Source: Kineococcus endophyticus (lineage in GTDB: Bacteria > Actinomycetota > Actinomycetes > Actinomycetales > Kineococcaceae). Taken from it: a stretch of DNA of 64,000 nt. Below, piece by piece: positions 1 to 7,408 of this stretch; within the stretch, counting starts at the first letter, position 1; each line of letters starts with the position of its first letter. Position numbers and translations under genes: made by a program. The notes below the pieces were generated by a model that ran no database searches, was not told the origin of the DNA, and saw only the letters and a program-made list of their open reading frames with translations. The stretch is from the NCBI RefSeq assembly GCF_040796495.1, contig NZ_JBFNQN010000006.1, forward strand, positions 186,001-250,000, read 5' to 3'.

Positions 1-1175
1 AACCCTGTCGGGGCGCTGCCGGGGGCGACGAGGACCTCGGCGTCGGGGAACGCCGCGACGAGTGCCTCGGCGGGTGTGGTGGGCCGGACCGCGGGGGTCA
101 CCTTGGCGAACGTGCCGCCCTGCAGGCAGGGGACGACGGCGTTCGGGCCCAGGACCGCCAGCGTGCGGCCGGCGACCGTCCGCAGCGGGAGGATCCCACC
201 GTCGTCGTGCAGCAGGACGGTGCCGGCGGCGGCCGCGGTGCGCAGCAGTTCCACCCGCTCCGCCGCGTCGCCCGGGGCGACGGTGCCGGTCCGGGCCACC
301 CGGCGGCCGAGCCGGACGACGCGGTCGGCGGCGTCGCGCACCCGGTCCGCCGGGACGGCGCCGGCGCGGACGGCGTCGGCCAACGCCGGCCCGAAGCACC
401 GCGGCGCGCCCGGCATCTCGAGGTCGAGACCGGCGAGCGCGGAGGCGACCGTGTCGCGCGTGGCGAACCAGTCGGACATCGTCACCCCGTCGAAACCCCA
501 CTCCTCGCGCAGGACGCGCAGCAGGGCGGAGTTCTCGCAGCAGTGCTCGCCGCGGACGCGGTTGTAAGCGGTGAGGACCGTCCAGACGCCGGCCTCGACG
601 GCGGCTTCGAACGGGGCCAGGTACACCTCGCGCAGTTCCCGCTCGTCGACCGCGACGTCCATCGCCTGGCGGCGCGTCTCGGTGTCGTTGGCGACGAAGT
701 GCTTGGCGCACGCGGCGACCCCGTGCTCCTGCAGGCCCCGGATCCAGGCCGCCCCCAGGACGGAGGTCAGGTGCGGGTCCTCGGAGAACATCTCGAAGGC
801 CCGGCCCGAGAACGGGGTGCGCGGCAGGTTGAGGTTGGGGCCCAGCACGACGTCGACGCCGTCGCGGCGCGCGTCCTCTCCGAGCAGGCCGGCGACGCGC
901 CGGACGAGGTCGGGGTCCCAGCTCGCCGCGAGGGACGTGCCCGAGGGCAGCAGGGTCGCGGTGTCGCGTTCGTCCATCGTGCGGCTGACGAGCCCGAGGG
1001 GCCCGTCGAGGAGCGTGAGTTCCGCGACCCCGGCCACCGGCAGCCCGTGGGCCGTCCAGCCGTTCACCCCGGCCGTCGCGGCGGCCAGTTCGTCGAGCGG
1101 CAGCTCGTCGAGGGGCAGCTCGTCGAGGGGCAGGTCCCCGACCGCGGATCCGGTGGCCTCCTGGAGCTCGGTCAC
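1..1175 (-). CDS. Glycoside hydrolase family 3 beta-glucosidase, C-terminus cut by window edge
   Basis: This is the N-terminal part of a GH3 beta-glycosidase, which hydrolyses terminal beta-glucosides or related sugars; the C-terminal domains lie outside the window. The GH3 catalytic domain is clear. It has a KHF-VANDTE motif near residue 157, the EEWGFDGVTMSDW block near residue 230 whose Asp is the family nucleophile, and the MPG motif just after it. The GTG start is chosen because GTGA overlaps the stop of the upstream flavin monooxygenase gene by 4 bp. The N-terminus carries three LPLDEL-type repeats from a 15-bp tandem repeat. No signal peptide is seen, so it is probably cytoplasmic. Substrate is unknown; context suggests a plant glycoside. 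Confidence 0.88.
   Translation of the reverse strand, partial: MTELQEATGSAVGDLPLDELPLDELPLDELAAATAGVNGWTAHGLPVAGVAELTLLDGPLGLVSRTMDERDTATLLPSGTSLAASWDPDLVRRVAGLLGEDARRDGVDVVLGPNLNLPRTPFSGRAFEMFSEDPHLTSVLGAAWIRGLQEHGVAACAKHFVANDTETRRQAMDVAVDERELREVYLAPFEAAVEAGVWTVLTAYNRVRGEHCCENSALLRVLREEWGFDGVTMSDWFATRDTVASALAGLDLEMPGAPRCFGPALADAVRAGAVPADRVRDAADRVVRLGRRVARTGTVAPGDAAERVELLRTAAAAGTVLLHDDGGILPLRTVAGRTLAVLGPNAVVPCLQGGTFAKVTPAVRPTTPAEALVAAFPDAEVLVAPGSAPTG
1091..1135. repeat. 15-bp tandem repeat inside the GH3 gene (3 copies)
   Basis: Three consecutive 15-bp units (cgtcgagSggcagct, the last differing at one base) encode repeated L-P-L-D-E near residues 14-30 of the GH3 protein. The repeat is in frame, so slippage would change the protein by five residues at a time. 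Confidence 0.85.
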
Positions 1176-2278
1176 GCCATCGTCCGGAAGTTCGGCATGA
1201 CGCGCTCGGCGAACAGGCGCATCGACTGGTCCGTCGCGCGACGGCGTTCGGGGGTCAGGGGACCGCCCATGAAGCCCCCGAGGAGGTTCCCGACGCCGAG
1301 GTCGGCGTACTGCTTCAGCTTGGCGGTCACAGTCTCGGGGGAGCCGTGCAGGCACCACACGCGCTTCCACTCCGGGGTGGTGCCGTCGGTGGGTTCCCTC
1401 AGGTCGACGCCGCTGATGGCCTCGGCCTTCTTGTTCGCGACGAACTCGCGCTCGACGGTGCGCTGGTACTGCCCGAGCAGGACGTCGAGCTCGGCCTCGG
1501 CCTGCTCGTCGGTCTCGGCGAGGTGGACGTACTGGTAGCTGTGCGTCGTCCACTCCAGCGCGTGGTCGAGGACGGGCTGCGCGTGGCCTGCGGCCTCGAG
1601 CGCGGTGCGGTAGCGCTGGTAGGACGCCGCGAACACGGTGAACGGGTCCTCCGGCACCATGTCGTGCGGCGGGAGGAAGTTGAGGATGAACGCCGGCTGG
1701 CCCAGGGCTGCAGCGCGTTCGGTGCTGGAGGGGCGGGCGGCGACCGGCATCATCGTGGGTGTCCGGCCACCGTAGGGCGTCGGGCTGATGCGGCTGACGA
1801 CGGCGCCGGAGTAGTGCGAGTTCGAGAACTGCACGGGTTCGTCGTCCGGCTGCTTCGCGAACAACCGGCCGACGACCTCCAGGTTCTCCTGGGACAGCCG
1901 CGAGGTGTCCTGGAAGTTGACGCCGAACCCGATGGACTCCTCCGGCGTGGTGCCCGATCCCACGCCCACGAGCAGCTTGCCGTCGGTGAGCTGGTCGAGC
2001 AGGGCCAGCCGCTCGGCGAACCGCACGGGGTGGTGCAGCGGGACGGTCTGGACCGAGAACCCGTACCAGAGCTCGGGGTGCCGGGCCGCGAGGTAGGCCG
2101 CGAACATGAACGGGTCGCTGGCCTGCGGGGCGTAGCCGGTGAAGTGGTGGTCGGGCTGGAAGACGGCGTCGAAACCCAGCTCGGCGCCGCGGTCGACGTG
2201 CTCGACGAGGGCGTCCATGACGGCGCGGTCCTCGGACGGAGCCGTCGAGCGGGTGGTGAGGAAGAGGGAGAAGTGCAC
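1172..2278 (-). CDS. LLM-class flavin-dependent monooxygenase
   Basis: A bacterial luciferase-like monooxygenase of 368 residues, the usual family length. These enzymes use reduced FMN or F420 and oxygen to oxidise small organic molecules in the cytoplasm. The N-terminal barrel strand HFSLFLTTRS, the GFDAVFQPDHHF segment and the GVGSG-type phosphate-binding stretch support the family. The GTG start at 2278 has a GGAG ribosome-binding site 7 nt upstream. The longer in-frame extension is arginine/proline-rich shadow sequence and is rejected. It lies 14 bp downstream of a flavin reductase gene, so the two probably form a two-component monooxygenase. It overlaps the GH3 gene by 4 bp. The substrate cannot be read from sequence. 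Confidence 0.88.
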   Translation of the reverse strand: MHFSLFLTTRSTAPSEDRAVMDALVEHVDRGAELGFDAVFQPDHHFTGYAPQASDPFMFAAYLAARHPELWYGFSVQTVPLHHPVRFAERLALLDQLTDGKLLVGVGSGTTPEESIGFGVNFQDTSRLSQENLEVVGRLFAKQPDDEPVQFSNSHYSGAVVSRISPTPYGGRTPTMMPVAARPSSTERAAALGQPAFILNFLPPHDMVPEDPFTVFAASYQRYRTALEAAGHAQPVLDHALEWTTHSYQYVHLAETDEQAEAELDVLLGQYQRTVEREFVANKKAEAISGVDLREPTDGTTPEWKRVWCLHGSPETVTAKLKQYADLGVGNLLGGFMGGPLTPERRRATDQSMRLFAERVMPNFRTMA

Positions 2279-2292
2279 GGTGGGCTCCGGTC

Positions 2293-2823
2293 TCAGACGA
2301 GGGTGGGGACGCCGTAGGCGCCACGGGAGAAGACGAGGGAGTGGGGCACGTCCGGGTCGGCCCCCAGGGCGACGACGCGGCCGAGGACGAGGTCGTGGTC
2401 GCCGGTCTCGAGGACGTCCTCGACGACGCACTCGACCCACGCTGCGGCGCCGTGCACGACGTGACCACCGCCGGGCGTCCGGTCCCAGCCGAAGCGCTCG
2501 AACCGGTCGTCCTCCTTGCGGGCGAACGCCCGGCAGACGTCGACCTGGTGCCCGGCCAGGACGCTCGCGGTGAACGCCCCCGCGGCGCGGACCAGCGGCC
2601 AGGTCGTCGAGGCCCGGTCGGGCAGGAAGCAGACGAGCGGCGGGTCGAGGGAGACCGACCCGAACGTGCCGACGACCATCGCCGCCGAGGGGCGGTCGTC
2701 GGCAGGACCGCCGGCCGTGACGAGGGTGACGCCGGTCGGCACGTGGCCGAGGACCGAGCGGAACGCGCGGGCGTCCCCGGCCGGGACGGGGGTCAGGGGG
2801 GTCGCTGTCGCGAGCTCGGGCAT
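2293..2823 (-). CDS. Flavin reductase family protein
   Basis: A 176-residue flavin reductase (HpaC/ActVB-type fold). It uses NAD(P)H to reduce free FMN or FAD and hands it to a partner monooxygenase, here most likely the luciferase-like protein encoded 14 bp downstream. Typical features are FRSVLGHVPTGVTLVTA near residue 22, the VGTFGSVSLDPPLVCF core, and a GDHDLVLGRVV strand near the C-terminus. The ATG is preceded by GGAAGGTC at good spacing. It is the first gene of a minus-strand operon that reads into the GH3 gene. It is divergent from a TetR gene, with a palindromic operator between them, so TetR control of the whole unit is likely. Confidence 0.88.
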   Translation of the reverse strand: MPELATATPLTPVPAGDARAFRSVLGHVPTGVTLVTAGGPADDRPSAAMVVGTFGSVSLDPPLVCFLPDRASTTWPLVRAAGAFTASVLAGHQVDVCRAFARKEDDRFERFGWDRTPGGGHVVHGAAAWVECVVEDVLETGDHDLVLGRVVALGADPDVPHSLVFSRGAYGVPTLV

Positions 2824-2874
2824 CTGCGGGACCTTCCGGTGGAGGCGGCGGTGCCAGGACCGAACGGACTCGAA

Positions 2875-2892
2875 TCAGAATCCGTGTTCTGA
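2875..2892. promoter_or_regulatory. Palindromic operator between flavin reductase operon and tetR
   Basis: A perfect 6-6-6 inverted repeat, TCAGAA-tccgtg-TTCTGA, lies 52 bp from the flavin reductase start and 60 bp from the tetR start. It is the only clear palindrome in the divergent gap, so it is the best candidate binding site for the adjacent TetR protein. Confidence 0.55.
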
Positions 2893-2937
2893 ACAGTAGG
2901 TGGGCCCGTCCGCCCCGTCAACCACCGCCCGCTGGGC

Positions 2938-2943
2938 TAGGTT
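2938..2943 (+). promoter_or_regulatory. -10 box of a leaderless tetR promoter
   Basis: TAGGTT matches the actinobacterial TANNNT -10 consensus and ends 8 nt before the tetR GTG. No ribosome-binding site lies between them, so transcription probably starts at or next to the start codon. Confidence 0.5.
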
Positions 2944-2951
2944 CGGGAACC

Positions 2952-3638
2952 GTGTCCGACCGACCCGACCCGGCCCACGCCCCCGCGCTCGCCGTGCAGG
3001 AGGGCCCGGCGATCCGCGAACCCCTGCAGGCCCGCAGCCGCGAGTCCTTCGCGCGCGTCCAGGACGCGGCGCTGAACCTGTTGCGGGAGAAGGGGGACGA
3101 CTCGTTCACCCTGGCCGAGGTGAGCGAGCGCTCGGGGGTCTCCACCGGCAGCATCTACGGGCGGGTCAAGGGCAAGGACGCGCTGCTGCGCCTCGTCCAC
3201 GTCCGCGAACTCGAACGCATCGATGCCGACACCGAGGCCGTCCTGGCAGCGGCCCTGGAGGGCCACTCCTCGGTCGAGGACGGCGTGCGCGCCCTCGTGA
3301 GCGCCCTCGCCGAGCTCCTGCGCGCCGAGGCGGGGGTGCTGCGGCCCTTCATGCTGCGCGCCGTGCACGACGCCGAGGTCGCCCGGGCCGGCAAGCGGTC
3401 CTCGGACCGCGCCATCGAAGCGTTCTGCGGCGGCCTGTTGCGCTACCGGGACCAGATCCGCCGCGACGACCCGCAGGCGGCCGTGGAGTGGTGCCACACC
3501 GTCGTCTACAGCGTCCTGGCCCGCCGGTTGGGCCTCGGCAGCACCGCCGAGGGGGCCGACCCCACGGACCTCGGCGTCATGGTCGAGCGGCTCGCGTCGA
3601 TGGTGACCTCGTACCTCACGAGCCCGGACCCGCACTGA
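2952..3638 (+). CDS. TetR/AcrR family transcriptional regulator
   Basis: A 228-residue TetR-type repressor. The DNA-binding helix-turn-helix is at about residues 30-80 (FARVQDAALNLLREKG, then LAEVSERSGVSTGSIYGRVKGKDALL). The remaining all-helical part is the ligand-binding and dimerisation domain. GTG at 2952 is used because a TANNNT box sits immediately upstream. It is divergent from the flavin reductase/monooxygenase/GH3 operon and upstream of the sugar transporter/isomerase operon, so it may control both. The ligand is unknown; a phenolic glycoside or its aglycone would fit the neighbours. Confidence 0.88.
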   Translation: MSDRPDPAHAPALAVQEGPAIREPLQARSRESFARVQDAALNLLREKGDDSFTLAEVSERSGVSTGSIYGRVKGKDALLRLVHVRELERIDADTEAVLAAALEGHSSVEDGVRALVSALAELLRAEAGVLRPFMLRAVHDAEVARAGKRSSDRAIEAFCGGLLRYRDQIRRDDPQAAVEWCHTVVYSVLARRLGLGSTAEGADPTDLGVMVERLASMVTSYLTSPDPH

Positions 3639-3643
3639 CCCGA

Positions 3644-3672
3644 CCGTCCCATCCGCCGTGTGGATGGGACGG
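3644..3672 (+). terminator. Hairpin after tetR
   Basis: Inverted repeat CCGTCCCATCC / GGATGGGACGG, 11-bp perfect arms with a 7-nt loop, begins 6 nt after the tetR stop. It most likely ends tetR transcription; a second role as an operator for the transporter operon cannot be excluded. Confidence 0.6.
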
Positions 3673-3748
3673 ATGGGGAACGGTTGTTTCCCTTCCCCCG
3701 CTCCTGCCAGCACAGTGTCGTCAGGTACTGCGCGAAGGAGCGGAGAGC

Positions 3749-5149
3749 ATGACCCACCCCCTGGTGCGGAGCGTCGCAGCTCCGGCCCCACCGGCCCCGG
3801 CAGCGCTGCCCTTGCGGCGGCGGGAGGAGTTCGCTTACGGCGCCGGCGACCTGGCCTCGAACCTGTCGTGGAACTTCGTCGGCTCGTTCCTGCTCTTCTA
3901 CTACACGAACGTCGCCGGAGTCCCGATCGCGGTGCTGGGCACGCTCTTCCTCGTCGCCCGGCTGCTCGACGCCGTCGTGGACCCCTTCATCGGCGTCCTC
4001 GTCGACCGCACCTCCTCGCGGTTCGGCCGGGCCCGGCCCTACCTGCTCTTCGCCGCCGTCCCGTTCGGCGCGCTGGGGGTGCTGACGTTCACCGTCCCCG
4101 ACGTCGGGGACTCCGCCAAGCTCGTCTACGCCTTCGTCACGTACCTGACGCTGGGGATCCTCTTCTCGCTGGTCAACGTCCCGTACAGCGCGCTGCTGCC
4201 CATGATGACGCGCGACCGCGACGAGCGGATGCGGCTCGGGTCCTTGCGGGCCGTGGGGTCCTCTGTGGGCACGATCGTCGTGACGGCCGGCACCACCCCC
4301 CTCGTCGCCGCGCTCGGCGGTGGTCAGCACGGGTGGACGACGGCGACGGTCCTCTACAGCGTGCTCAGCGTCGGCTTCTTCGCCTGGACCTTTGCCGGCT
4401 GCCGCGAACGGCACACCCTCCCCGTGGACCCGCGCACGCACGACCTGCGCGCCACCGTCCGCGGCCTGCCGCGCAACCGGGCCTGGACCGTCACGGTCGC
4501 CTACGGAGTCCTCAACTTCGTCCGCCTCGGGCTCGTGCTCGCCGTCACCATCTACTTCGCCCTCGACGTCCTGCGGCGGCCGGCGGCCGTCTCGGTCCTG
4601 CTGCCCCTGGTCTCCGGGGCGATGCTCGTCGGAGGGCTGCTCGCCCCGCGGTACTACCGGCGCCTTGGGCTGCGCCGGGGGAACCTGGTGGCCCTGGCCG
4701 TCGGCGGACTCGCGTGGGCCGGGCTCGGTCCGGTCGTCGGGCACTTCGGCGCGTTCGTCGCCGTCTACGCCGTCGCCAGCCTGGCGGTCGGCCTGTCCAT
4801 GACGTCGATGTTCACGATGGTCGCCGAAGCCGTCGAGCACCAGGAAGCCCGGACCGGCGCACGCCAGGAGGGCCTGCTGTCCGCCGGGGTCAGCTTCGCG
4901 GTCAAGGCCGGATCGGCCGTCGGTGCCGCCGCCGTCGCCTACGCGCTGGCGTGGGCCGGGTACGACCCCTCCTCGCCGGGGTCGGCGACCGGCACCGTGA
5001 GTTCCCTCTACCTGCACGTCCCGCTCGTGCTCATCGCCCTGCAGGCCGTCGTCGTCCTCCTCTGGCCGACCACGCTGCCGGGCGCCGACCGAACCCCTGC
5101 TCGAACCCCTGCTCGAACCCCTGCTCGAACCCAGGAGACCGTCCGATGA
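3749..5149 (+). CDS. GPH (MelB-like) sugar/glycoside:cation symporter
   Basis: A 466-residue integral membrane transporter of the glycoside-pentoside-hexuronide family. It imports a glycoside with Na+ or H+. About twelve membrane segments are visible. The family signature is near residues 58-95 (LLDAVVDPFIGVLVDRTSSRFGR), and the Asp residues of that helix are the usual cation ligands. The ATG follows gaaggagcggagag. Upstream in-frame extension is low-complexity R/P/G sequence and is rejected. Its stop overlaps the next ATG (ATGA). It heads a four-gene operon with two TIM-barrel proteins and a C-glycoside deglycosidase beta-like protein, so the cargo is probably a sugar conjugate used by them. 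The C-terminus carries a T-P-A-R repeat. Confidence 0.9.
   Translation: MTHPLVRSVAAPAPPAPAALPLRRREEFAYGAGDLASNLSWNFVGSFLLFYYTNVAGVPIAVLGTLFLVARLLDAVVDPFIGVLVDRTSSRFGRARPYLLFAAVPFGALGVLTFTVPDVGDSAKLVYAFVTYLTLGILFSLVNVPYSALLPMMTRDRDERMRLGSLRAVGSSVGTIVVTAGTTPLVAALGGGQHGWTTATVLYSVLSVGFFAWTFAGCRERHTLPVDPRTHDLRATVRGLPRNRAWTVTVAYGVLNFVRLGLVLAVTIYFALDVLRRPAAVSVLLPLVSGAMLVGGLLAPRYYRRLGLRRGNLVALAVGGLAWAGLGPVVGHFGAFVAVYAVASLAVGLSMTSMFTMVAEAVEHQEARTGARQEGLLSAGVSFAVKAGSAVGAAAVAYALAWAGYDPSSPGSATGTVSSLYLHVPLVLIALQAVVVLLWPTTLPGADRTPARTPARTPARTQETVR
5090..5133. repeat. 12-bp tandem repeat at the transporter C-terminus
   Basis: The unit cgaacccctgct is repeated about 3.6 times, coding R-T-P-A repeats at the cytoplasmic end of the symporter. 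It ends 12 bp before the downstream start codon and overlaps the region carrying that gene's ribosome-binding site (ccaggagacc). Confidence 0.88.
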
Positions 5150-6171
5150 CCCACCGCATCACCCGGGGCGTCAGCCTCTACTCGTTCCAGGAGGAGTTCT
5201 TCCTGCGCACGATGACGATCCGCGACGCCGTCGCCGTGGCCGCCCGCATCGGCGCCCGCGACATCGAGATCATCCCCGAGCAGTCGATCCCGGGGTTCCC
5301 GCACGTCACCGATGCGTGGGTCGAGCAGTGGCACGCGACCATGGCCGAGTTCGGGACCCGTCCCCTCGCCTACGACTTCTTCCTCGACACCCTGCGCCAC
5401 CCGGGCCGCCGGCTCACCCACGAGGAGCAGGTCGCCTCGGTGCGCCGCGACGTCGACCTGGCGGTCCGCCTCGGCACGACGATGCTGCGGGCCATCATCA
5501 GCACGCCCGCCGAGGTGCTGCGCGACGCCGCCCCCTACGCCGAGGAGGCCGGCGTGAGGCTCCTGCTGGAGGTGCACGCGCCGTTCCACTACCGGCACCC
5601 GTGGGTGCTGCAGCACCTCGAGGTCATGGACGCCCTCGACTCGCCCGCGCTGGGGTTCATGCCCGACATGGGGTGCTTCGTCGAACGCTTCCCGCGCGTG
5701 GCTTCCGAACGCGCCCTGCGCGAGGGCGCCCGCAAGGACCTCGTCGACCTGGTCGTGAAGACGTACGACGACCACGGGGACGTGCACGGGCTCATGGACA
5801 CCGTCGGCTACAGCGGCGGGGGACCGGTCGAGGTCGGCCTCGCCCGCCAGGCCACCCACTACACGTGGCGCGACCCGCGGATGCTGCTCGAGCAGATGCA
5901 CCGCACCCACCACGTGCAGGCCAAGTTCTACGAGATGACCGACGACGGCGTGGAGTACTCCATCCCCTACGACCGCATCGTCGACGTCCTCGTCGAGGGC
6001 GGGTACCAGGGGTGCCTGTCGAGCGAGTACGAGGGGAACCGGCACGTCCAGGACGCCTTCCCGGTGGACTCCGTCGAGCAGGTCACCCGCCAGCACGCGA
6101 TGTTCGAGCGGCTGCTGAGCCGTCACGAGAGCGTGCCGACCACCGGGCCGACGACAGAGCAGGAGGGCTGA
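5146..6171 (+). CDS. Sugar isomerase/epimerase-like TIM barrel; probable C-glycoside deglycosidase alpha subunit
   Basis: A 341-residue AP-endonuclease-2-type TIM barrel. Metal-ligand candidates are E142 and H144 in LLLEVHAPF, D174 in GFMPDMG and E294 in SSEYEG. On its own it would be called a sugar phosphate isomerase/epimerase. The next gene, 6 bp downstream, encodes a homologue of the small C-glycoside deglycosidase beta subunit. In characterised CarBC/DgpBC complexes the alpha subunit is a TIM barrel of this size, which cleaves the C-C bond of 3-oxo-C-glycosides. It is therefore proposed as the alpha subunit. The start overlaps the transporter stop by 4 bp (ATGA). Family is certain; deglycosidase activity is inference. 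Confidence 0.82.
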   Translation: MTHRITRGVSLYSFQEEFFLRTMTIRDAVAVAARIGARDIEIIPEQSIPGFPHVTDAWVEQWHATMAEFGTRPLAYDFFLDTLRHPGRRLTHEEQVASVRRDVDLAVRLGTTMLRAIISTPAEVLRDAAPYAEEAGVRLLLEVHAPFHYRHPWVLQHLEVMDALDSPALGFMPDMGCFVERFPRVASERALREGARKDLVDLVVKTYDDHGDVHGLMDTVGYSGGGPVEVGLARQATHYTWRDPRMLLEQMHRTHHVQAKFYEMTDDGVEYSIPYDRIVDVLVEGGYQGCLSSEYEGNRHVQDAFPVDSVEQVTRQHAMFERLLSRHESVPTTGPTTEQEG

Positions 6172-6177
6172 TCCGCC

Positions 6178-6570
6178 GTGTTCGAGAAGTACGTGATCGT
6201 GCCGGGGACGTTGCGCAACGTCGTGGAGTCCGGTCGGGCCACGGCCTACGAACTGGGGGTGCGGATGCCGTACTACCGCGGGCTGGGGCTCTCGATGGTC
6301 GAGGACGTGTCGGTGACCGTCGACGGGGTGCGGGCCGAGCCCGCCGCCACGACGTTCACCGTGCACGGCAACAGCTACCCGCTGACCGCGATGGGTGAGG
6401 TCGTGGACGACCGCTGGGAACTGGGGGAGGTGGCGACCGTCCGGGTGGAGCACCCCGGCGGACTCGCGGCCGGCGTCCACGACGTCGAGGTCAGCCAACG
6501 GCTGAGGATCTCCTACATGCCCGTTCCCGGGGGTGGCCGCGCCCGCGCCGAGGTCGAACTGTCCGCCTGA
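6178..6570 (+). CDS. C-glycoside deglycosidase beta-subunit-like protein (DUF6379-type)
   Basis: A 130-residue beta-rich protein resembling the beta subunit of C-glycoside deglycosidases (DgpC/CarC, DUF6379). Visible blocks are KYVIVPGTLRNVV at the N-terminus, YELGVRMPYYRGLGLSMVEDV in the middle and F-T-V-H-G-N-S-Y-P near residue 60. Known beta subunits pack against the TIM-barrel alpha subunit. The GTG start sits 6 bp after the alpha-like gene, whose last codons carry the aggagg ribosome-binding site, so the two are translationally linked. The length fits the family. The call rests on recalled family features, not a search. Confidence 0.75.
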   Translation: MFEKYVIVPGTLRNVVESGRATAYELGVRMPYYRGLGLSMVEDVSVTVDGVRAEPAATTFTVHGNSYPLTAMGEVVDDRWELGEVATVRVEHPGGLAAGVHDVEVSQRLRISYMPVPGGGRARAEVELSA

Positions 6571-6613
6571 CCGACTCCGCCGCCGAACCGCCCCCACGCT
6601 GGAAGGAACCACC

Positions 6614-7408
6614 GTGCCGCACACCCTGGCCCCGAACGTCGAACTCCTCTTCACCGAGGCCGGCGACTACCCCGACCGCGTGCGTGCCGCCGCCGCCGCG
6701 GGTTTCACGTCCGTGGAGATGTGGGGCCCGACCGGCCGCGACGCCCCCGCGAAGCCGAAGGACCTGCGTGCCCTCGAGGAGGCGTTGCAGGAGACCGGGC
6801 TGCGGCTGGAGGCGCAGCTCGCCGAACCCCGTACCCAGTTCATGATCCCGCCGAAGGACCACGGCGACTTCTACCGCGGCATCGAGGAAGGGGCCCGCAT
6901 CGCCGCAGACCTCGGGTGCCCGCGGATCGTCGTGCAGGGCGGGACGGGTTTCGGCGGCCGCAAGCGCGCCGACCAGCACGAGGAACTGGCCGGGATCTAC
7001 CGTCGTGCGCTGGAACTCGTCGAGGGCTCCGGTGTCGTCCTCGTGCTCGAACCGGTCAACACCCGCGTCGACCACCCGGGGACCCTGCTGGACCGCACGG
7101 CGGACGCCGTGGACGTCGCCCGGCAGGTCGACTCACCGCAGTTCGGGATCCTGCTGGACGTCTACCACTCCCGCGTCATGGGGGAGGACCTGGCCGAGGA
7201 GCTGGACCGCGCCGGTGACCTCGTCCGCTACGTCCAGGTGGCCGACGCCCCCGGCCGCGGGGAACCGGGCTCCGGGTCGGTGGACTGGCCGGCGGTCTTT
7301 GCGACGCTGACGTCCGCCGGCTACGACGGCCCGGTGGGTCTGGAGTACGCGCCGACGACGGACTCCGCCACGTCCACGAAGCTCGTGCGCGAGATCGCCT
7401 CGCGCTGA
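6614..7408 (+). CDS. Hydroxypyruvate isomerase-like TIM-barrel protein
   Basis: A 264-residue Hyi-type xylose-isomerase-like TIM barrel. Likely metal ligands are Glu in VLVLEPVN, Asp in GILLDVYHS and Glu in VGLEYAP. The VQVADAPGRGEPGSGSVDW block is the hallmark of the hydroxypyruvate isomerase family. Members interconvert small keto and aldehyde sugar acids, or act as isomerases of 3-keto sugars in glycoside catabolism. The GTG start follows GGAAGGA at 4-nt spacing. It is the last gene of the transporter/deglycosidase operon, so it probably processes the oxidised sugar released by the upstream complex. Exact substrate unknown. Confidence 0.82.
   Translation: MPHTLAPNVELLFTEAGDYPDRVRAAAAAGFTSVEMWGPTGRDAPAKPKDLRALEEALQETGLRLEAQLAEPRTQFMIPPKDHGDFYRGIEEGARIAADLGCPRIVVQGGTGFGGRKRADQHEELAGIYRRALELVEGSGVVLVLEPVNTRVDHPGTLLDRTADAVDVARQVDSPQFGILLDVYHSRVMGEDLAEELDRAGDLVRYVQVADAPGRGEPGSGSVDWPAVFATLTSAGYDGPVGLEYAPTTDSATSTKLVREIASR

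Follow-up and report, generated by a model that had tools for sequence, protein, structure and literature searches.

How could a soil bacterium take apart an aromatic C-glycoside? The C-C bond between sugar and aromatic ring is hard to break, ordinary glycosidases are ineffective on such compounds, and to our knowledge little is known about their use by soil bacteria past the first two steps. The question is raised by a locus at the left end of a 64,000-nucleotide stretch of the 5.04-Mb genome of Kineococcus endophyticus (G000; contig C6:186001-250000), hereafter the window; negative positions lie to the left of its position 1. We consider it quite probable that this locus represents a catabolic island for C-glycosides, of soil type and with its gene set complete. 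Its core appears to be a well-supported further case of the known soil C-glycoside pathway, and the presence of a luciferase-like monooxygenase (LLM), a flavin reductase and a GH3 glycosidase in the gene run of the oxidase would be its new part. One divergent pair of runs would thus encode both known steps together with a monooxygenase that is uncharacterised and probably two-component, and the island turns the action of the LLM on the glycoside or on the aglycone into a testable question.

The deglycosidase subunits and the 3-oxidase

A preliminary description of this DNA had proposed that a TIM barrel is followed 6 bp later by a homologue of the small (beta) subunit of C-glycoside deglycosidases, to be checked with the profile PF19906. 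The gap between the stop of the first gene and the start of the second was exactly 6 bp, and the 6178-6570 protein matched PF19906 with 129.8 bits (curated cut-off 27.6), which placed it inside the deglycosidase beta family and not outside, as that description had allowed for. Since this was the sole match in its own genome and none was obtained in the control genomes (0/14), the match is not due to chance. The family is rare, with members in 3/11 genomes of the genus and 3/296 of the class (own genome counted in both). Two other members of the class, G179 (C113:57297-69763) and G299 (C77:38872-45400), had 4 matches in about 12.5 kb and 3 in about 6.5 kb, respectively (L010-L016), and this clustering suggests deglycosidase arrays.

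When compared with solved structures, the TIM barrel matched 8qvc_A (E 5.4e-104), 7bvr_A, the partner of DgpB (E 1.8e-33), and 7dnm_A (E 8.4e-27), and the 6178-6570 protein matched 8qvc_B (E 2.2e-24) and DgpB itself (7bvr_B, E 7.4e-16). Both proteins also matched the entries of DgpB, DfgB and AgCarC2 and their partners. In AgCGD2, the metal ligands are Glu147, Asp179, Lys271, Glu305 and His269, and the catalytic residues are His149 and Glu307 (PMC8563793; this and all other papers with a PMC number are cited from extracts). The TIM barrel has E142, D174, K260 and E294 (metal) as well as H144 and E296 (catalytic) spaced as in AgCGD2. E142, H144, D174 and K260 were present in 86/86 aligned sequences, that of the window included, and E294 and E296 in 85/86, the remaining one having a gap. 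Tyr33 of the beta protein aligned without gaps with Tyr39 of DgpB and was a Tyr in all relatives (85/85); in PuCGE, replacement of Tyr39-beta by Phe kills C-glucoside cleavage and lowers O-glucoside cleavage just 2.4-fold (PMC10628242). Judged by homology, the 6178-6570 protein is a C-glycoside deglycosidase beta subunit and the TIM barrel upstream is the matching alpha subunit.

We also observed that one 435-aa chain of PDB 8qrz/8un2 matches the beta subunit at 7-118 and the alpha subunit from 144 on, and resembles a beta-alpha fusion.

The C-glycoside 3-oxidase had been expected outside the window, and a GMC enzyme was among the candidates suggested for a search to the left of position 1. 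This search succeeded: at 1.2-2.8 kb to the left (-2771 to -1227), we recovered a GMC protein aligned with the C-glycoside oxidase PsG3Ox (7qf8) over 504 residues (E 7.4e-163), whose gene overlaps the GH3 gene by 4 bp. The alignment retains His440, Asn484, the GAHW-T flavin motif and the ASPVP substrate loop of clade IV type (catalytic residues, flavin motif and substrate-loop types of PsG3Ox: PMC10807413, PMC10646112).

Layout of the island and proposed pathway

The island consists of two divergent gene runs, and all genes named in the preliminary description were present at coordinates exactly or very nearly as given there. The leftward run contains the flavin reductase, LLM, GH3, GMC 3-oxidase, TIM1 and TIM2 genes, and the rightward run those for TetR, the GPH symporter, deglycosidase alpha and beta, and the hydroxypyruvate isomerase-like protein:

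-4656 to -3700, minus strand: TIM2, extra TIM barrel, read left of the window
-3703 to -2768, minus strand: TIM1, extra TIM barrel overlapping the run of the GMC gene, read left of the window
-2771 to -1227 (L002:13230-14774), minus strand: predicted GMC glycoside 3-oxidase, by homology to PsG3Ox (7qf8)
1175 leftward out of the window to -1230 (part inside the window 1..1175), minus strand: GH3 beta-glucosidase, 801 aa (PF00933, PF01915, PF14310)
1172..2278, minus strand: LLM, 368 aa (PF00296, 139.7 bits)
2293..2823, minus strand: flavin reductase (HsaB/FerA/HpaC class) that presumably serves the LLM (PF01613, 124.8 bits)
2875..2892, no strand: TCAGAA-N6-TTCTGA, a palindrome of the divergent promoter region conserved in three species and a candidate TetR operator
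2952..3638, plus strand: TetR-family regulator (PF00440, 35.6 bits)
3749..5149, plus strand: GPH-type glycoside symporter (PF13347 MFS_2, 278 bits)
5146..6171, plus strand: predicted C-glycoside deglycosidase alpha subunit, TIM barrel with metal site (PF01261, 62.4 bits)
6178..6570, plus strand: predicted C-glycoside deglycosidase beta subunit (PF19906)
6614..7408, plus strand: hydroxypyruvate isomerase-like TIM barrel (PF01261, 136.4 bits)

The LLM, GH3, GMC, TIM1 and TIM2 genes are chained by 4-bp overlaps, the one between GH3 and LLM lying at the LLM stop, and the reductase and LLM genes are 14 bp apart; on the other side, the alpha and GPH genes share 4 bp. The placement of a GPH symporter and a hydroxypyruvate isomerase-like gene in one run with the deglycosidase, and of TetR, two-component flavin monooxygenase and GH3 genes beside them, thus held. 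Two of the proteins scored under the cut-offs of more specific models, the isomerase-like protein with TIGR03234 (165.5 bits, cut-off 353) and the reductase with the NCBIfam HsaB model (139.8 bits, cut-off 230). A longer start of the isomerase-like gene at 6533, the one chosen in the preliminary description, is likewise open. The closest solved structure to the GH3 protein was 7pjj (E 1.5e-121).

We recovered the island in the same gene order in two congeners, G001 and G005 (TIM2 in L108 and L109), with the following identities to the window proteins:

LLM: G001 94%, G005 93%
TIM1: G001 95% (only 228/311 residues in the stretch), G005 95%
Deglycosidase alpha: G001 91%, G005 89%
Deglycosidase beta: G001 87%, G005 89%
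GMC oxidase: G001 79%, G005 77%
GH3: G001 81%, G005 83%
Flavin reductase: G001 78%, G005 75%

The identity of the LLM (93-94%) exceeds that of the deglycosidase. Deglycosidase and LLM were present in exactly the same 3/11 genomes of the genus (p 0.006; no p-value in this work corrects for relatedness, for instance that of two plasmids of Croceicoccus marinus, and the samples compared were drawn in different ways). The membership of LLM and GH3 in the pathway, also proposed earlier, gains support from the whole island in these two congeners and from co-location in other phyla (see below).

In the pathway that we propose, the GPH symporter would take up an aromatic C-glycoside and the GH3 enzyme would strip O-linked glucose decorations. 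The GMC enzyme with O2 would oxidise the C3 hydroxyl of the sugar, and the alpha-beta complex would use a metal ion and the catalytic His to eliminate the aglycone, leaving 2-hydroxy-3-keto-glucal, two steps suggested by homology and by the presence of the catalytic residues. The extra TIM barrels could hydrate or isomerise the released sugar, hydration being proposed by analogy to AtHYD, whose role is itself based on preliminary evidence (PMC10628242). The released sugar is probably the target of the isomerase-like TIM barrel too. The reductase would supply FMNH2 to the LLM, which could oxygenate the aglycone or a close derivative, the aglycone being its probable substrate. A cluster resembling those for flavonoid A-ring cleavage, encoded on a different contig, could complete the breakdown of the aglycone, and TetR may repress both runs via a shared palindrome.

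The LLM and the alternative readings

The LLM is a PF00296 protein with a PF01613 flavin reductase gene next door. We scanned genome contigs with the alpha alignment and considered the best 80 of 163 loci with flanks of up to 10 kb; an LLM with about 50-62% identity was present in the flanks of 18/80. We then searched whole genomes for LLM orthologues (E <= 1e-60) in 50 deglycosidase genomes, hand-picked from these 80 loci by leaving out further loci on the same record, short contigs and several near relatives; the loci left out include the LLM carriers L070, L072 and L073 and also others without an LLM in their flanks. An orthologue was recovered in 28/50, always in single copy and with E <= 2.6e-111. 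It was on the alpha-bearing contig in 27/28, at a distance of 1.4-18.2 kb (median 7.5 kb), LLM and alpha being on different contigs in G326. Among 296 genomes of the class and 396 of the phylum (top 5-6 LLM candidates per genome scored, among the matches shown), a single orthologue was found in each sample, both times that of the own genome. Co-location of LLM and alpha spans Actinomycetota, Pseudomonadota and one Deinococcus plasmid, and out of 72,556 plasmid records 10 had the LLM, 13 an alpha (E <= 1e-40) and 6 both (hypergeometric 2e-21, relatedness again ignored). The companionship of the LLM with deglycosidases is thus common, not universal.

The GH3 gene was on the strand of the LLM in 27/27 stretches. 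A reductase was near the LLM, that is within 8 kb (5.2 kb in L034), in 22/27: FR-type, the PF01613 type of the window, in 6, FMN_red-type in 16, both in none and neither in 5, all called by similarity only except the one of the window and four others. Because one or the other of these two unrelated families, never both, was near the LLM in 22/27 stretches, the LLM probably uses FMNH2 rather than F420. The LLM-GH3 pair could also serve as a marker for finding more plant-glycoside islands.

Several observations weigh against reading the locus as one complete C-glycoside island, and we take them together with the alternatives that they bear on. The LLM was not found in 22/50 deglycosidase genomes by whole-genome search, nor in G179 and G299, the only members of the class sample besides the own genome to have PF19906. 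Congener G001 has a second deglycosidase locus (L007:9042-13647, L106), in which a divergent pair is accompanied by a separate GMC oxidase and a separate GPH gene and adjoins a VOC/hydrolase/FAD/FAH aromatic cluster; the 19.9-kb stretch of this locus (L007) had no LLM. Conversely, 4/10 plasmid records with the LLM had no alpha match on the record, and LLM and GH3 stood together there. The LLM, reductase and GH3 could then form a separate module for aromatic O-glucosides, a mere neighbour of the deglycosidase in degraders of plant material, with no role in C-glycoside use. This is the alternative that survives best, although we regard it as doubtful. Besides the 22 genomes without the LLM, it would account for plasmids of Pseudomonas, Streptomyces and N. 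resinovorum whose displayed stretch has LLM-GH3 and no gene annotated as a deglycosidase, and for the at least 13 changes that the LLM label needs on the tree of 86 alpha sequences (genome-wide LLM searches covered some of the unlabelled rows). It fits poorly with the single chain of 4-base overlaps that joins the LLM, GH3 and GMC 3-oxidase genes, in an order common to three species, and with an LLM-alpha co-location far from chance.

The natural substrate itself may be an O-glycoside, since PuCGE (CGE) cleaves 3-keto O- as well as C-glucosides (PMC10628242). The whole island could accordingly serve chiefly for O-glucosides of plant phenolics, with the GH3 enzyme hydrolysing them, the GMC oxidase and the alpha-beta complex removing the rest by oxidation-elimination, and C-glycoside cleavage as a side activity. 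This scenario appears unlikely to us. The invariable GH3 on the LLM strand and the LLM plasmids without an alpha match would agree with it; the conserved Tyr33-beta, equivalent to a PuCGE residue on which C-glucoside cleavage depends and O-glucoside cleavage hardly does, and the match of the GMC enzyme to PsG3Ox, which strongly prefers mangiferin over glucose in the extracts cited above, argue for the C-glycoside.

The metal ligand His269 of AgCGD2 corresponds to Gln258 in the alpha subunit of the window (5917-5919). This position was of Gln type in 47 and of His type in 39 of the 86 aligned sequences; Gln258 may thus be a natural variant, and we rejected a broken metal site. That the alpha-beta pair acts on another 3-keto sugar, from a non-aromatic glycoside or an anhydrosugar such as levoglucosan, is very unlikely: an analogous levoglucosan oxidation-elimination operon exists (PMC10628242) and the Gln replaces a His, but the solved pairs matched include C-glycoside deglycosidases, and a two-component monooxygenase and a GPH symporter suit an aromatic glycoside.

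Returning to the C-glycoside island, its sugar branch, regulation and aglycone branch each present a difficulty. One Gfo/Idh probe for a candidate 3-keto-glucose reductase had no match in the stretches of the island (L002, L003, L008 and L009). The 128-bp space between the flavin reductase and TetR genes contains TCAGAATCCGTGTTCTGA at 2875-2892, a palindrome that all three species keep with at most one mismatch and that had one match in the window, compared with 0 in 100 shuffles. Allowing one mismatch, we counted 6 copies in the own genome (reversed control pattern 0). By our own gene calls, the five others (L111:9311, L112:7960, L113:8459, L114:8169 and L110:11147) sit at the 3' end of a gene or in the space where two genes converge. 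G001 and G005 have one further copy each, likewise at a gene 3' end. Because of the position of these other copies, an operator role is merely plausible, and we tentatively retain the 2875-2892 palindrome as a candidate TetR operator. We rejected a TetR regulon derived from the palindrome search, the outside copies resembling terminator-type hairpins at gene ends.

The cluster on contig C2 that could process the aglycone (VOC/hydrolase/cyclase/FAD/FAH/CoA-transferase) is on another contig than the island, and its hydrolase was in 7/11 genomes of the genus versus 3/11 for deglycosidase and LLM. We thus rejected it as a part of the island and regard it as a pathway for aromatics in general.

Last, the LLM, reductase and GH3 might form an unrecognised oxidative deglycosylation module, in which the LLM would insert oxygen at the sugar-bearing carbon in a step of the Baeyer-Villiger or ipso-hydroxylation type, converting the C-glycoside to an O-glycoside or an ester for hydrolysis by the GH3 enzyme. 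We give this idea a very slim chance. If true, it would constitute a second, hydrolytic route of C-glycoside cleavage beside oxidation-elimination and account for the lasting association of LLM and GH3, sometimes without a deglycosidase.

To the left of the window, an apparent sugar ABC transporter operon is located at G000:C6:164804-169656 (L110:8805-13657), about 16-21 kb away, with two permeases, a VOC-like gene, a LysR gene and a solute-binding protein, named by a look at the sequence only. The island may extend to this operon, since it is close to TIM2 in G001 and G005 (L108, L109). Between the two in the own genome lies a nitrilase/radical SAM/flavoprotein/glycosyltransferase-like cluster (L002:605-11203; C6:170604-181202), in which the radical SAM and an amidohydrolase gene, and only these, were confirmed by Pfam. 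This cluster resembles Nit1C.

Comparison with known systems

In the literature searched, of partial coverage with most subscription papers outside, we found no description of an LLM-GH3 module and no paper for DUF6379 or PF19906. Among the matches listed, the terms 'C-glycoside' and 'luciferase-like monooxygenase' occurred together only in a review on salt-adapted microbes (PMC12387818), and the main text of PMC12724307 had no match for 'monooxygenase' or 'luciferase'. No NCBIfam LLM model matched the LLM of the window at cut-off. The preliminary description had likewise known of no such combination.

The LLM differs from RslO1 (7bip), bacterial luciferase and other two-component LLMs by an identity of 23-25% and by its GH3 partner. 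By Pfam families, the contig C2 cluster (L104) may be of the fde (naringenin) and ifc (isoflavone) kind, with a FAD monooxygenase, a VOC protein and an alpha/beta hydrolase together; the same trio stands beside a deglycosidase locus in congener G001, but the fde/ifc-like cluster here is on a different contig. The gut dgp (DgpABC) and dfg clusters have an alpha-beta deglycosidase of the same families, whereas the oxidoreductase of dgp is of the Gfo/Idh/MocA type and that of the window is a GMC oxidase.

The nearest solved relative for both deglycosidase subunits is 8qvc/8qvd/8umc, which we take to come from Deinococcus aerius; the alpha subunits have 50% identity and differ in the metal ligand that is His there and Gln here. 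The GMC enzyme shares with PsG3Ox of Pseudarthrobacter siccitolerans (7qf8), a clade IV C-glycoside oxidase, the catalytic His and Asn, the flavin motif and a conserved substrate loop, which reads MDASPVPRPD in the window versus LDASPVPLADDD in PsG3Ox. Finally, the core resembles PurA + PurBC of Paenarthrobacter No. 37 and CarA + CarBC of Microbacterium 5-2b, in which a CarA-kind FAD 3-oxidase acts before an alpha-beta deglycosidase. In the soil PurA + PurBC pathway, purA is downstream of purBC (PMC12724307); unlike PurABC as given in that source, the island of the window has the LLM, the GH3 enzyme and two extra TIM barrels in the gene run of its oxidase.

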